From Hyphococcus sp. (GTDB lineage: Bacteria; Pseudomonadota; Alphaproteobacteria; Caulobacterales; Parvularculaceae): a stretch of 32,019 bases of DNA. A program made the translations under genes and the position numbers. The stretch spans positions 1 to 32,019 of the forward strand of contig JAJFGD010000262.1 in the NCBI GenBank assembly GCA_021776315.1, read 5' to 3'. Below are positions 22,775 through 27,926 of this stretch, piece after piece. Position 1 is the first letter of the stretch, and each line of letters begins with the position of its first letter. The notes under the pieces were generated by a model. It saw only the letters and a list, made by a program, of their open reading frames with translations, made no database searches and was not told where the DNA came from.

Positions 22775-24271
22775 TCATCCCATTGTCGGGATGACGAATT
22801 CTGACCCTTGTACATCTTCGGGCCACCGTTGCGTGATGGTTTTGACTTTGGTCCAAAACTTTACACCTTCGGGCCCATGTTGGTTTGTGTCGCCAAAACC
22901 TGAACGTTTCCATCCACCAAAAGTATGATAAGCAACCGGCACAGGGATCGGCACATTAACGCCCACCATTCCAACATTAACGCGGGCTGCAAATTCACGC
23001 GCTGCAGATCCATTGCGTGTGAAAATTGCTACGCCATTGCCATATTGATGATCTGAAGGAAGCGCCACGGCTTGTTCAAAATTCTCCGCACGCGCAATTT
23101 GGAGCACCGGTCCAAAAATCTCTTCTTGATATGACTGGTGATCAGGGCGTGCTCGATCAAGCAAAGTACCACCCATGAAGAAACCATTTTCATAGCCTTG
23201 AAGCGAGAAATCGCGTCCGTCGACAACGAGTTCTTGCCCCTCGTCCACAGCCATTTGGATATAGCTAGCAACACGATCACGATGGGCCGCCGAAACCAGC
23301 GGTCCTAAATCACTATCTTCAGACATAGATGGGCCAATGCGTAGGCTTTCAACGCGTGGTTTCATCATTTCGATCAGCGTTTCTGCAGTTCCTTCACCCA
23401 CAGGCACCGCTACCGGTGTCGCCATACAGCGCTCCCCGGCGGATCCATATGCAGAACCAACCAATTGATTGACGACATTGTCCATATCTGCATCGGGCAT
23501 GATGATCATATGGTTTTTAGCGCCACCAAATGCTTGAACCCGTTTTCCGTTGGCACAACCATTTGTGTAAATATATTGCGCGATATCCGATGACCCGACA
23601 AAGCTAATTGCTTTGATGCGCGGGTCTTCAATAATCGCGTCAACAGCCTCCTTGTCGCCATTGACCACGTTAAGAACGCCCTCTGGCGCACCGGCTTCCA
23701 TCATCAGCTCTGCCAAACGCAACGGTACCGATGGGTCTTTTTCAGACGGTTTGTTGATGAACGTATTGCCACACGCAATCGCGACACCAAACATCCACAT
23801 CGGAATCATGGCCGGAAAATTAAATGGTGTAATACCGGCGACAACGCCCAGCGGTTGGCGCATGGAATAAACATCGATTCCTGGTCCGGCTGAATCTGTA
23901 TATTCACCTTTTTGAAGATGCGGGATGCCGCAAGCAAATTCGATAACTTCTAGACCACGTTGAACATCACCGCGTGCATCGGGAAGAATTTTGCCATGTT
24001 CCGACGACAGCATCTTCGCGATATTGTCCATATCCTTTTCGACAAGGTCTTTAAATTTGAACATCACCCGAGCCCGCCGCTGCGGATTGGTTGACGCCCA
24101 TTCGGGCAGCGCATTGGCGGCTGCATCAACCGCCTTGGTCAACTCCTCGCGACTCGCGAGCGCAACTTGGCTTTGAACCTCACCGGTCGTGGGGTTGAAA
24201 ACATCGTGAAGTCGACCTGATACACCAGCGACATGGTCGCCATTGATAAAATGTCCAAATTTTGTCGTCAT
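22775..24271 (-). CDS. mmsA: Methylmalonate-semialdehyde dehydrogenase (CoA-acylating)
   Basis: MmsA converts methylmalonate semialdehyde to propionyl-CoA and CO2 with NAD+ and CoA, the last step of the valine branch. The 498-residue protein has NAD-binding ITPFNFPAMIPMW (147-159), FVGSS (224-228), and nucleophile Cys282 in GSAGERCMA. AFGGAKNHMIIMPDAD replaces the usual ALDH ELGG box, so it lacks the general-base Glu, as expected for CoA-dependent members. The start is set at the ATG at 24271 because it gives the family's usual N terminus (TTKFGHFINGDHV). A TTG 10 codons upstream is less likely. Confidence 0.94.
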   Translation of the reverse strand: MTTKFGHFINGDHVAGVSGRLHDVFNPTTGEVQSQVALASREELTKAVDAAANALPEWASTNPQRRARVMFKFKDLVEKDMDNIAKMLSSEHGKILPDARGDVQRGLEVIEFACGIPHLQKGEYTDSAGPGIDVYSMRQPLGVVAGITPFNFPAMIPMWMFGVAIACGNTFINKPSEKDPSVPLRLAELMMEAGAPEGVLNVVNGDKEAVDAIIEDPRIKAISFVGSSDIAQYIYTNGCANGKRVQAFGGAKNHMIIMPDADMDNVVNQLVGSAYGSAGERCMATPVAVPVGEGTAETLIEMMKPRVESLRIGPSMSEDSDLGPLVSAAHRDRVASYIQMAVDEGQELVVDGRDFSLQGYENGFFMGGTLLDRARPDHQSYQEEIFGPVLQIARAENFEQAVALPSDHQYGNGVAIFTRNGSAAREFAARVNVGMVGVNVPIPVPVAYHTFGGWKRSGFGDTNQHGPEGVKFWTKVKTITQRWPEDVQGSEFVIPTMG

Positions 24272-24416
24272 GGTTTTTAGCGTTCCTCGCCTGATATCCA
24301 ACGCGCAATGCCCGTCTCGACGACGGCCAACGGCAGATAAATGTCAATAATGGCGGCGAACCTAGACGCCGGGTGCTCCGGGGTAAAGGCGTCGAAATCA
24401 CGCAAATGGCGTACAC

Positions 24417-24881
24417 CTAGTCTTTCGGGAGGCAGCCGGTCCCGTTTGCAGCGCCAAAAACATGGGTGACGTCGGAACCATTGGTACTCAATGGTAATAG
24501 AACACTTCGAAAAATAATCCGGCGGCGATCATAAAGGCGAAGGGCGCTTTCATAAAATACCGGCTCTCGTGACAGCGCCGCCTCATCCATTTTCGACGTT
24601 ACCATATCTAATAACGTCTCTTCGCAAAGCTTATGGCCTGAGAGGTAGATATTGGAAAACCGGCATAATTTATCGCCAAGATAGATGAAATATGGAAAAC
24701 CGTTGGACAGACGCATATCTACCGCAAAGCACAAATCCCAATCGTCGCCCAATTCCAGCAATTGAATTTCACTCCATGACGGCAATTCACCGTTCACGCA
24801 GGAACGCCAGGATTTTTCCACCCTGTGGATCAATCGCCGTTCACGGAGACGCGTCGAATTTTCTCGCAGCATAGTCTTCAT
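24417..24881 (-). CDS. PAS_5-type PAS domain protein
   Basis: This 154-residue protein is a single PAS_5-like domain, common in alphaproteobacteria. A helical RLREIRR-like start (LRERRLIHRVEKSW) is followed by LPSWSEIQLLELGDDWDLCF, YFIYLGDKLCRFSNIYLSG, and the ending FRSVLLPLSTNGSDVTHVFG, which is the characteristic 'LLPLS.dG..V..i.G' strand. There is no output domain. The ATG at 24881 has GGGGAGA about 9 bp upstream and is preferred over an earlier in-frame codon at 24998. It is upstream of mmsA by about 145 bp on the same strand, and that gap shows no clear terminator. Ligand and partner are unknown. Confidence 0.75.
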   Translation of the reverse strand: MKTMLRENSTRLRERRLIHRVEKSWRSCVNGELPSWSEIQLLELGDDWDLCFAVDMRLSNGFPYFIYLGDKLCRFSNIYLSGHKLCEETLLDMVTSKMDEAALSREPVFYESALRLYDRRRIIFRSVLLPLSTNGSDVTHVFGAANGTGCLPKD

Positions 24882-25076
24882 CGTCGTTTCTCTCCCCTTC
24901 TGGCGCCCAATGCTGCCAACTCCGGATGAAAGAGCGGTTCGTGCACCGCTAAAAACTTGACCCAAATTTAATTGGATTTGTGCCCTTAACCCTGACATCC
25001 CCCTAAATATGAGGGGTGACGGGCCCTACGACGCACCCTATAAGGGGCCGCTTAATGGTATTAGGAGGGGTTTTCC
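24882..25076. promoter_or_regulatory. Divergent intergenic region with two G/C hairpins upstream of the miniprotein gene
   Basis: This 195-bp region separates the PAS gene (minus) from the 30-codon gene (plus). CCCCT (25000-25004) pairs with AGGGG (25012-25016) around AAATATG, and GGCCC (25022-25026) can pair with GGGCC (25045-25049). Both lie directly upstream of the strong AGGAGGGG ribosome site. They may shape the leader RNA of the miniprotein gene. I did not find a convincing sigma-70 promoter on either strand. Confidence 0.35.
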
Positions 25077-25169
25077 ATGGAGCCAGGCTGGATTGGCGTT
25101 TTGTTGATTGTCGGTTTTATCGCGGTATTTGCGATTTTGAACCTGTTTGAAAAAGGCCGCATTGATTAG
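25077..25169 (+). CDS. 30-residue single-pass membrane miniprotein
   Basis: ATG at 25077 to TAG at 25169 encodes 30 residues: MEPGW, a hydrophobic stretch of about 18 residues (6-24) and the charged tail EKGRID. TTAGGAGGGG ends 6 bp upstream of the ATG, one of the best Shine-Dalgarno sequences in the window. It would be a single-helix inner-membrane protein. The polarity (acidic/Trp start, Lys/Arg after the helix) suggests N-out/C-in. The gene is isolated: 195 bp from the upstream gene and 116 bp before the antiporter. No function can be assigned. Regulation of the antiporter or of an unlinked membrane complex is only a guess. Confidence 0.68.
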   Translation: MEPGWIGVLLIVGFIAVFAILNLFEKGRID

Positions 25170-25231
25170 GTTTCCCGCTGGCAACCAAGCATGCACCCTA
25201 TCCATCAGCTTACGGGCTTACCCTTTACAAT

Positions 25232-25257
25232 AAACACCCCATATAAATAGGGCGTTT
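25232..25257 (+). terminator. Possible terminator after the miniprotein gene
   Basis: AAACACCC (25232-25239) and GGGCGTTT (25250-25257) pair with one internal mismatch around a 10-nt A/T-rich loop. The right arm runs into TTTTGG. It is 62 bp after the miniprotein stop and 28 bp before the antiporter ATG, so it would separate the two transcripts. The short T run makes this a moderate call. Confidence 0.4.
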
Positions 25258-25285
25258 TGGTTTGCCGCGTAGTTAAAGGAATTCA

Positions 25286-26251
25286 ATGACCGCCGATATT
25301 ATTTTGGTTGTCTTAGGACTCACGATCCTACTCGTCGCCGGCGATTTGCTGGTGCGCGGGGCTGTAAGCTTCGCTGCAGCACTTAAAGTCTCCCCCCTAC
25401 TTGTCAGCCTCACCATTGTGGCATTTGGTACATCCGCTCCTGAGCTGGTGGTTTCAGTACAAGCCGTCACAAGCGGCAATGATGGCATTGCGCTTGGCAA
25501 TATCATCGGATCAAACATTGCGAATATTTTGATGGTGCTGGGCCTGCCCGCCATCATTTATCCGATTACCACGCACGTTATCGGCTTGCGTCGCCATGCC
25601 GTTTTTATGTTGCTCGCGACGGCTTTGTTTGCTGGCGCAGCTTATACCACGGGTCAAATCGATACGAAGATCGGCGGCGGTCTCTTTCTCGGGATCCTAC
25701 TTTATGTTGGGTATATGTGGATCAAGGCGAGCCGGGGCGGTTCGAACAATCCAGTATTGGATGAGGTCGAAGAATATCAGGAATCGACCGCGCTCAACTT
25801 TAAGACAATTCTATTTTTGGTGGTTGGATTAATCGGTCTTCCGCTTGGTGCCCACCTGCTTGTGAATAGTGGTTCGAATTTAGCAGCGGGTCTCGGCGTT
25901 CGAGATGAATTGATTGGTTTAACCATTGTCGCGTTTGGAACGTCTTTGCCAGAATTAGCGACCGTGGTTGCTGCAGCGATCCATAAAAAATCAGATGTCG
26001 CGATTGGCGGCATTATCGGCTCAAACATATTCAACCTATTGGCCGTCGGCGGTGCTGCAGGTCTGGCCGGTACGGCAACTTTCGATTCGCAATCATTAAG
26101 CGTCGAAATCCCTGTTATGATTGCGGCATCACTGGCAATCTCACTATTTGTCCTTACCAGACGCGATATCGGCCGTGTAACCGGCGTCTTTTTCTTCGGT
26201 GCCTATGTCGGCTTTATCGTCGCGCTCGCTGGTCTTGCAGGAGGGTTTTAG
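25286..26251 (+). CDS. Calcium/sodium antiporter (CaCA family, YrbG-like)
   Basis: This 321-residue integral membrane exchanger has about ten helices. The two inverted alpha-repeats are plain: TIVAFGTSAPELVVS...GNIIGSNIANILMVLG (about 43-86) and TIVAFGTSLPELATV...GGIIGSNIFNLLAVGG (about 213-255). They carry the conserved Glu in each 'GTS.PEL' and the Asn in 'GSNI.N' that bind Ca2+ and Na+. AAAGGA precedes the ATG. The protein matches YrbG/MaX1-type bacterial Na+/Ca2+ exchangers in length. A GxxGSNI core without a K+-dependent signature leaves ion selectivity open. The SDR gene follows after 3 bp. Confidence 0.93.
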   Translation: MTADIILVVLGLTILLVAGDLLVRGAVSFAAALKVSPLLVSLTIVAFGTSAPELVVSVQAVTSGNDGIALGNIIGSNIANILMVLGLPAIIYPITTHVIGLRRHAVFMLLATALFAGAAYTTGQIDTKIGGGLFLGILLYVGYMWIKASRGGSNNPVLDEVEEYQESTALNFKTILFLVVGLIGLPLGAHLLVNSGSNLAAGLGVRDELIGLTIVAFGTSLPELATVVAAAIHKKSDVAIGGIIGSNIFNLLAVGGAAGLAGTATFDSQSLSVEIPVMIAASLAISLFVLTRRDIGRVTGVFFFGAYVGFIVALAGLAGGF

Positions 26252-26254
26252 GCC

Positions 26255-27022
26255 ATGCCCCAATCGGGTACGGCAACCGCTCTTGTGACAGGGGCAGGCA
26301 AACGAATTGGACGAGCGATGGCATTGGCCCTCGCTGATACCGGATATGATGTTGCCATTCACTATCACTCCTCAAAAAAGGAGGCCGACGAAGTCGCTTC
26401 ACTGATCGAGAAAAAAGGTCGGACGGCTATGGTCGTCAAAGCAGACCTCTCAAAAGAAGAAGACACGGCTCGCCTGATCGCCGAGACTAACGATCTGATC
26501 GGGCCACTTACGCTCTTGGTAAATTCAGCATCGACGTTTGAGCATGATGATATCGACACGATGACGTCGGAAAGCTGGAACCGACACATGACTGCAAATC
26601 TGCAGGCACCGGTAAAACTGGCCCAGGACTTTGCACGTCAAGCGCTGCCACAAGCAAATAATGTCATTGTCAACTTGGTTGACCAACGTGTACTTAAACT
26701 AACGCCTCAGTTTTTGTCCTACACGGTCTCAAAATCGACGTTGTATTCCATAACAAAAACTTTGGCACAGGCCCTCGGACCAAAAGGGATCCGAGTGAAT
26801 GCCATTGGCCCAGGGCCAACCTTAAAAAATCCACGTCAAACTGACAAAGATTGGCGCGAGCAAAATGAAGCAACGATATTGGGATATGGGGCAACGCCTG
26901 ACGACATATGTGCCGCACTTATTTACTTAACCCATGCACGTGCCGTAACCGGCCAAATGATTGCCGTTGATGGTGGTCAACATCTTGCTTGGCAAACACC
27001 AGACGTTTTGGTGGGGGAATAA
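26255..27022 (+). CDS. Pteridine reductase-like SDR (FolM/PTR1 type)
   Basis: This 255-residue short-chain dehydrogenase has an NADPH-binding TGAGKRIG (12-19). The active site departs from the usual SDR Ser-Tyr-Lys: the Ser position is Asp143 (NLVDQRV), 13 residues before Tyr156 in YTVSK with Lys160. The same D-Y-K set and spacing occur in Leishmania PTR1 and are shared by FolM. HYHSSKKEA (36-44) and VNSASTF (89-95) also parallel PTR1's HYH and NNASSF. The likely reaction is reduction of dihydropterin, dihydromonapterin or dihydrofolate. folB follows 2 bp later, so a folate/pterin role is well supported. Confidence 0.82.
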   Translation: MPQSGTATALVTGAGKRIGRAMALALADTGYDVAIHYHSSKKEADEVASLIEKKGRTAMVVKADLSKEEDTARLIAETNDLIGPLTLLVNSASTFEHDDIDTMTSESWNRHMTANLQAPVKLAQDFARQALPQANNVIVNLVDQRVLKLTPQFLSYTVSKSTLYSITKTLAQALGPKGIRVNAIGPGPTLKNPRQTDKDWREQNEATILGYGATPDDICAALIYLTHARAVTGQMIAVDGGQHLAWQTPDVLVGE

Positions 27023-27024
27023 TT

Positions 27025-27447
27025 ATGTCAAACCAAAATCCATCGCTTGAGGTCACAACCTTACCACGATCGGAAACCGCTCCACGACGAAAAGTATTTG
27101 TCCGCGGCTTAGAGCTAGATGCCTTTATTGGTGCCTATGACCACGAACAAGACGCAACACAACCGGTCATCATTGATCTTGAAGCTGATGTACTTGAACC
27201 CTCTCATCCGATTGGTGATCGACTTGAGGACGTCGTCTGTTACGATAAATTGACTCAAGGCATTCGAGCTATCATCGAAGAAGGTCATATAAAATTAGTT
27301 GAAACTTTGGCCGAGCGCGTTGCCGAATTGGCCTTATCACATAGCATGGTGCTTGGCGTTTCGGTGCGAATTACGAAGCCAAACGCTATCGCCGAAGCGA
27401 AGGCCGTTGGTGTCGAGATATTCCGCGCCAAAGCAACAGAAATTTAA
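27025..27447 (+). CDS. folB: Dihydroneopterin aldolase family protein
   Basis: FolB cleaves 7,8-dihydroneopterin (or its epimer) to 6-hydroxymethyl-7,8-dihydropterin in folate synthesis. The 140-residue protein has an N-terminal polar extension (1-22), then FVRGLELDAFIGAYDHE (25-41), DLEADV, VVCYDKL, the active-site Glu93 in KLVETLAERVAE, and the catalytic Lys118 in RITKPNAI. The ATG at 27025 is 2 bp after the SDR stop. An earlier in-frame codon lies inside the SDR gene and is rejected. It could alternatively be the FolX-type epimerase. The pairing with a FolM-like SDR makes the monapterin branch a real option. Confidence 0.87.
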   Translation: MSNQNPSLEVTTLPRSETAPRRKVFVRGLELDAFIGAYDHEQDATQPVIIDLEADVLEPSHPIGDRLEDVVCYDKLTQGIRAIIEEGHIKLVETLAERVAELALSHSMVLGVSVRITKPNAIAEAKAVGVEIFRAKATEI

Positions 27448-27926
27448 ATGGCTTCTGCAGTTGTAAAAAACTGCTGACCGGCACTTTGCGATAAAGCCCA
27501 CACAATGCCACCGATGCCAAAAAATACAAAAGCACCGCTAAAAATTGAAAAAATCACAAATGCGAACCCTGCACCACCAGGTTGCAGTACCGAGTAAGAA
27601 TGATCCAATGGGTCAACAAACACCCGCAGGTTTTCACCTGGTAAATAGTTCGTTGTGGAACGGTTCGAAAATCGAGCCAGAAACACCCGCTCGCGGGTCG
27701 ATTCATAGCTTCGCCCGTTCATCGAGTAGACATAACGTACACGCTCTGGAGACCCATCCAATTTGCTCAAGACGATTCCCTCAACCGTAGGCCAAGACGT
27801 GCTGGCCCGCGCTTTGGCATAATCCTGGACAAAAAACCCGCCCGCAAAAACACCAATAATAGCAAGCGCCCCAAATAAAATCAGGACGATTGAAATATCG
27901 GACTTACTTTTGAGCTCTTCACTCAT
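27444..27926 (-). CDS. DUF3592 domain-containing membrane protein
   Basis: This 160-residue protein has two membrane helices (about 10-32 and 118-147) flanking a DUF3592 beta domain of about 85 residues. The domain includes STSWPTVEGIVLSK, RYVYSMNGRSYES, and YLPGENLRVFVDPLDHSYSVL, the typical 'Y.pG..v.V.ydP..P..s.L' ending. The function is unknown. The gene converges with folB and their stop codons overlap in a shared TTTAAA (27444-27447). It diverges from uvrC, with 52 bp between the two starts. Confidence 0.83.
   Translation of the reverse strand: MSEELKSKSDISIVLILFGALAIIGVFAGGFFVQDYAKARASTSWPTVEGIVLSKLDGSPERVRYVYSMNGRSYESTRERVFLARFSNRSTTNYLPGENLRVFVDPLDHSYSVLQPGGAGFAFVIFSIFSGAFVFFGIGGIVWALSQSAGQQFFTTAEAI

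Follow-up and report, generated by a model that had tools for sequence, protein, structure and literature searches.

The microprotein gene lies at positions 25077-25169 on the forward strand of a 32,019-nucleotide stretch of Hyphococcus sp. DNA (contig JAJFGD010000262.1), referred to here as the window. It runs from ATG to TAG, and its 30 codons preceding the stop are translated as MEPGWIGVLLIVGFIAVFAILNLFEKGRID, a product with a single predicted transmembrane helix and a C-terminal LNxxEKGRxD motif. The ribosome binding site, read from the sequence as AGGAGGGG at 25063-25070 of the same strand, is separated from the ATG by six nucleotides, and the initial annotation had rightly singled it out as strong. 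The coordinates, the length of 30 codons, the site with its 6-nt spacer, the hydrophobic segment and the EKGRID end were likewise found as they had been described. Since an in-frame stop is located four codons 5' of the ATG, with no start codon in between, the 30 residues are the sole reading of this frame. Further upstream is a promoter-like block (25013-25044, forward strand) consisting of GGGGTGACG at 25013-25021, a 17-nt spacer and TATAAG at 25039-25044. Downstream, the neighbouring gene on the same strand (25286-26251) encodes a calcium/sodium antiporter matching PF01699 and TIGR00367 above cut-off, and it is followed further downstream by an SDR reductase gene (PF13561) and by genes that, from their sequence, we take to be folB and uvrC. 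On the other side, a gene of 193 residues (24417-24998, reverse strand) diverges from the microprotein gene and is conserved in the genus; the product of its window copy matched nothing in Pfam or NCBIfam at E ≤ 1. This divergent gene is sometimes accompanied by a second, related tandem copy of 150-165 residues with a common FPYF.YLGDNL region, as seen in loci L006 and L012, and the two L012 proteins of this type had no Pfam match.

The short reading frame is present in 26 of the 27 other genomes of the genus (E 1.4e-11 to 1.3e-4), the sole genome without it (G018) being 76% complete, and a purine-rich site is also found upstream of the microprotein in the genus loci. Using simple Nei-Gojobori counts on the 30-residue form of 25 genus sequences, in which pairs are not independent, the pooled pN/pS was 0.36 in frame versus 1.02 and 1.45 in two shifted frames, while the 73 pairs (of 300) whose pS was below 0.6 had a median dN/dS of 0.27. 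Differences at the first, second and third codon positions were 0.31, 0.17 and 0.54 in the same 25 sequences. Both checks that had been proposed from the sequence, a conserved frame in relatives and a bias towards synonymous sites, therefore came out positive, the shifted frames displaying no such bias. In addition, comparable open reading frames, defined by AGGAGG, 4-9 nt, an ATG, a length of 24-40 residues and a hydropathy of at least 2.2, occurred once in the real window and not at all when the window was simulated 60 times with a first-order Markov model; the microprotein itself reaches a Kyte-Doolittle peak of 2.82 when scanned over 19 residues. A chance open reading frame is thus ruled out by selection, conservation and the Markov simulations, and 25077-25169 is a real gene under purifying selection.

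The common form of the microprotein is 26 residues long, and most members of the window's genus add four residues (MxPGW). The family signature is a single helix with a conserved face, followed by a C-terminal LNxx[E/D/T/Q/S]xGRxD. Among 82 distinct sequences gathered without the DNA pattern described below, Asn18 and the last residue, Asp26 (26-residue numbering), are found in all 82, while Gly23 occurs in 69, Arg24 in 62 and either Glu or Asp at position 21 in 68; over their last 26 residues, all 82 sequences carry a net charge between 0 and -3. Loci retrieved with the DNA pattern were excluded from this conservation profile because the pattern demanded Ala3, Ile/Met7, Asn18, Gly23, Arg24 and Asp26, and even so, that Asn18 and Asp26 never vary in this set is in part a product of profile searching. 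Indeed, a syntenic relative at locus L135 (about 1489-1572), matched weakly at E 0.045, ends in GRFG instead of GRxD. Asp26 is therefore not strictly invariant, and some relatives escape the profile. This GRFG relative, situated at a ctaA locus, suggests that the family may extend further into the Alphaproteobacteria than the profile detects. Along the helix, conservation has a period of 100-105 degrees per residue (82 sequences; permutation p 0.0002-0.002 over four range choices), and one helix face comprises Ala3, Ile7, Phe10, Phe14 and Leu17. AlphaFold2, run on a 25-row alignment, modelled a single helix at residues 4-26 with a mean pLDDT of 93.8. From hydropathy and this helix model, the microprotein is predicted to be a single-pass membrane protein; the single-helix protein of the initial annotation is genuine and conserved, with one hydrophobic segment and one predicted helix.

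The promoter-like block is kept across the genus. The exact GGGGTGACG, a spacing of exactly 17 nt and a TATA-type hexamer were found in all 26 genus loci, counting the window, whose DNA reaches far enough upstream; locus L004 was omitted from the count as its DNA ends before the block. The hexamer is mostly TATAAG, with TATATA in one locus and TATAAC in another. The block is missing from L028, L030 and L031, the three loci that lie outside the genus, and its conservation is demonstrated for the genus only. The arrangement GTGACG-N17-TATAAG resembles what we take to be the consensus of an alphaproteobacterial-type housekeeping promoter; a generic sigma-70 scan of 24900-25400 reported no promoter and did not list the block. 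In the whole genome, the only exact copy is the one before the microprotein gene, and matches with up to two mismatches numbered five (the exact copy counted) against eight for a reversed control. A promoter regulon was thus rejected, because the exact copy is single and near-copies are no commoner than those of the reversed control. One terminator-like site was found in 24900-25400, inside the open reading frame, where 0.8 would be expected, and an Rfam search of 24000-27500 returned nothing at the microprotein gene and one sub-threshold match elsewhere. The spacer between the microprotein and exchanger genes, which could be measured in 25 of 27 genus loci (two were unparsable), spans 62-165 nt in 24 of these and 555 nt in the remaining one, with both genes on the same strand, and the 25 measured spacers contain no conserved block except the next ribosome site. 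As the exchanger gene follows shortly downstream on the same strand, across a spacer devoid of a conserved block, co-transcription of the two genes would be plausible in this genus. The gene had originally been described as isolated, which these distances show to be too strong a word.

The distribution of the microprotein was followed in samples of increasing taxonomic breadth. In a sample of 200 genomes of the order, which includes the window's own genome, profile A1 (25 rows, E ≤ 0.1) identified it in 170 genomes, and profile A3, whose 43 rows take in outgroup sequences, in 199 (E ≤ 0.05); as A3 has rows from some of the sampled genomes, the latter figure expresses the completeness of the family and not the performance of a blind search. 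The only genome of the order without a match, G176, is 94% complete and in 270 contigs. A single match was found in 188 of the 199 genomes and two matches in the other 11, and in 11 of the 199 the E-value exceeded 1e-4. A class sample of 290 genomes gave 24 matches at E < 1e-8, of which five belonged to the order and 19 to the 285 others, and the outgroup carriers at this threshold span eight alphaproteobacterial families (f7, f12, f18, f39, f42, f70, f91 and f95). Six weak matches (E 0.002-0.05) were also obtained in this sample. One, in G450, is syntenic and a real relative, whereas those in G328, G339 and G467, located within long frames, and that in G371, with an internal stop, were taken as chance; the match in G434 was viewed on one strand. 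Among 299 genomes sampled across the phylum, matches were found in 15 members of the order together with three weak others, giving no clear match outside the order. Finally, a DNA-pattern scan recovered at least 120 stretches. Among the matches listed, those in the order include Caulobacter (C. vibrioides, C. segnis), Brevundimonas, Phenylobacterium and Asticcacaulis, as well as Hyphomonadaceae, Robiginitomaculum, Euryhalocaulis and Parvularculaceae, while those outside the order include Tepidicaulis and Rhodobiaceae. The order grouping used here differs from that of NCBI, where Parvularculaceae have their own order and Tepidicaulis is placed in Hyphomicrobiales.

Searches with 25 members against Pfam and NCBIfam at E up to 10 found no family above its cut-off, the CydX/YbgT and KdpF families included. 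The strongest matches were to PsbH of photosystem II, reached by five of the 25 members in Pfam and eight of the 25 in NCBIfam, and the likeness involves a PGW ahead of the helix. PsbH occurs in oxygenic phototrophs. Membership of the PsbH family is not supported, as the best Pfam score was 19.9 bits versus a cut-off of 24.6 and none of the four 26-residue forms scanned gave a match. With 43 members, PADLOC returned no match, and PHROGs returned two families, each from one member (E 0.005 and 0.009), that were taken as chance; the single match of a PDB profile search, at E 2, was a chance resemblance to Hsp104. Among the open-licence PMC papers listed in literature searches, none describes the microprotein family, and no paper on DUF2842 turned up. 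With its frame under selection and one predicted helix, the microprotein appears to fit the conserved bacterial single-helix microproteins, which are a kind and not a family. Close known counterparts are CydX, CydY and CydZ, which PMC4325964 presents as small single-helix subunits, or candidate subunits, of cytochrome bd oxidase. Like these, the microprotein is very small, has a single helix with few conserved residues and a strong ribosome site, and is missed by annotation, yet it has no Pfam or NCBIfam match and its conserved residues differ (C-terminal LNxxExGRxD). No cydAB genes lay beside it in the loci inspected by eye. KdpF, the stabilising peptide of the Kdp potassium pump, is about 29 residues long with one helix and therefore similar in size and build; the microprotein, however, has no Pfam match, and the C-terminal motif of KdpF presumably differs from its own.

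Gene order can mislead here, as two well-known neighbours hint at two functions and the occurrence data speak against either of them being obligatory. Of 40 loci drawn from five families of the order, 22 have the exchanger gene following the microprotein gene in the same orientation; together with the same arrangement in the genus and in f70, and with the short spacers, this would be consistent with a microprotein dedicated to regulating the neighbouring Na+/Ca2+ exchanger, like the small peptides tuning muscle calcium pumps. We nevertheless consider such a role quite unlikely. Adjacency is found in 8/8 loci of f1, 8/9 of f2 and 5/6 of f5, falling to 1/7 in f4 and 0/10 in f3, where the next of the searched window genes is the SDR gene (nine loci) or a FolB-like gene (one locus), and 16 of 17 outgroup loci have no adjoining exchanger. 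Moreover, PF01699 is found in 155 of the 200 genomes of the order against 199 of 200 for the microprotein. Because G176, which lacks the microprotein, has PF01699, all 45 genomes without PF01699 carry the microprotein, a figure which assumes that both 200-genome searches drew the same sample and in which 25 of the 45 were counted and not named. The initial caution that a regulated membrane protein would not necessarily be the neighbour is borne out by these 45 genomes, although regulation of any membrane protein by the microprotein would be hypothetical. Outside the order, the recurrent neighbour is instead ctaA, encoding heme A synthase. Of 17 outgroup loci (L113-L128 and L135), 16 have it within 2 kb of the microprotein gene, and only L123 of f70 carries the exchanger gene and a uvrC-like gene instead, like the window. 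A recurrent microprotein/DUF2842/ctaA cluster can be recognised in L113-L122, L124-L128 and L135, in which the ctaA-DUF2842 part may run in the direction of the microprotein gene or against it. That the microprotein helps heme A synthase (CtaA/COX15) or the assembly of aa3 oxidase, as a bacterial analogue of small COX assembly factors like Pet117, could be proposed because ctaA is close by outside the order, in both relative orientations, because DUF2842 sits between the two genes in 14 of the 15 outgroup carriers tested, and because CtaA is present in 46 of 46 carriers tested and, as PF02628, in 198 of 200 genomes of the order. DUF2842 was found in 40 of the 46 carriers, the misses being all five f5 genomes tested and G277. 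Pet117 is a mitochondrial factor coupling heme a synthase to COX assembly, and, likened by description only, it would share with the microprotein the nature of a small membrane protein tied to COX15, as the outgroup gene order suggests. Still, we judge the heme A role unlikely, though worth keeping in mind. In Caulobacterales, the DUF2842-ctaA pair is not adjacent: 306 kb separate it from the microprotein gene in G004, 150 kb in G078 and 17 kb in G094. The f70 locus resembles that of the window instead. Two genomes of the same genus, G042 (100% complete) and G126 (98%), have no PF02628 match and carry the microprotein at E 1.1e-9, and PF01699 too, which argues against the same role as Pet117. 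The missing PF02628 in G042 (locus L060) and G126 suggests that heme A oxidases are probably absent from them. Because the microprotein is kept in genomes without each of these recurrent neighbours, none of the exchanger, ctaA and DUF2842 is required for its retention, and both exchanger regulation and heme A help were rejected as obligatory roles. Either may possibly take place in some lineages; provided that the occurrence data are right, neither can be the role shared by the whole family.

Other explanations start from the size of the gene and not from its neighbours. As a regulatory leader peptide or upstream open reading frame, it would act through translation itself, and not through its product, to control the downstream gene. 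A short frame that precedes another gene and has a strong ribosome site of its own has this appearance, and some new small Caulobacter coding sequences look like leader peptides according to PMC4117421. What is conserved, however, is the amino-acid sequence and not the codons, the microprotein stays when the downstream gene changes, and the spacer has no conserved block beyond the next ribosome site, all of which makes a leader peptide very improbable. That the gene encodes the membrane toxin of a type I toxin-antitoxin system is scarcely credible. Type I toxins have a similar size and a single hydrophobic helix, and are typically cationic. The microprotein resembles them in size and helix, but it is neutral to anionic over its last 26 residues, occurs in nearly every genome of the order and mostly as a single match, and gave neither a PADLOC match nor a match in plasmids (one Brevundimonas-type query) or phages (window query). 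Both the leader-peptide and the toxin role are poorly supported.

A protein partner is favoured because of the conserved helix face, the nearly fixed C-terminal end and the near-universal retention. The reading that we prefer, and hold to be reasonably probable, is that of a single-pass inner-membrane microprotein, expressed from its own promoter-like block and strong ribosome site, serving as an accessory subunit of a larger constitutive complex. Its N-terminus would face outwards and its C-terminus inwards, and the face of Ala3, Ile7, Phe10, Phe14 and Leu17 could pack on a transmembrane helix of this larger complex. Where the helix ends, Asn18 may dock at the cytoplasmic surface together with the short ExGRxD tail and its free carboxylate, so that the microprotein would stabilise or tune the complex, by analogy with CydX and cytochrome bd. 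The partner should then be something that nearly every member possesses. Alternatively, the conserved face could reflect self-association, and the lineage-specific neighbours, exchanger and ctaA, could reflect different roles in different lineages. More tentatively, it could be speculated that the microprotein is a core subunit, so far undescribed, of one of the major inner-membrane complexes for respiration, translocation or division, one that is near-universal in Caulobacterales and perhaps essential, a possibility to which we give somewhat less than even weight. If so, its length of just 26 residues would explain why it was overlooked in Caulobacter. A protein of 26-30 residues that is almost never lost in the order, with its Asn and C-terminal Asp nearly fixed, implies that the cells must depend on its job, and as it is present in Caulobacter and Brevundimonas, where gene deletion, tagging and pull-down are done routinely, the question of an unseen subunit is directly testable. 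As stated in PMC4117421, ribosome profiling of C. crescentus identified 94 previously unknown coding sequences, the majority under 50 residues, and the microprotein gene may be among them.
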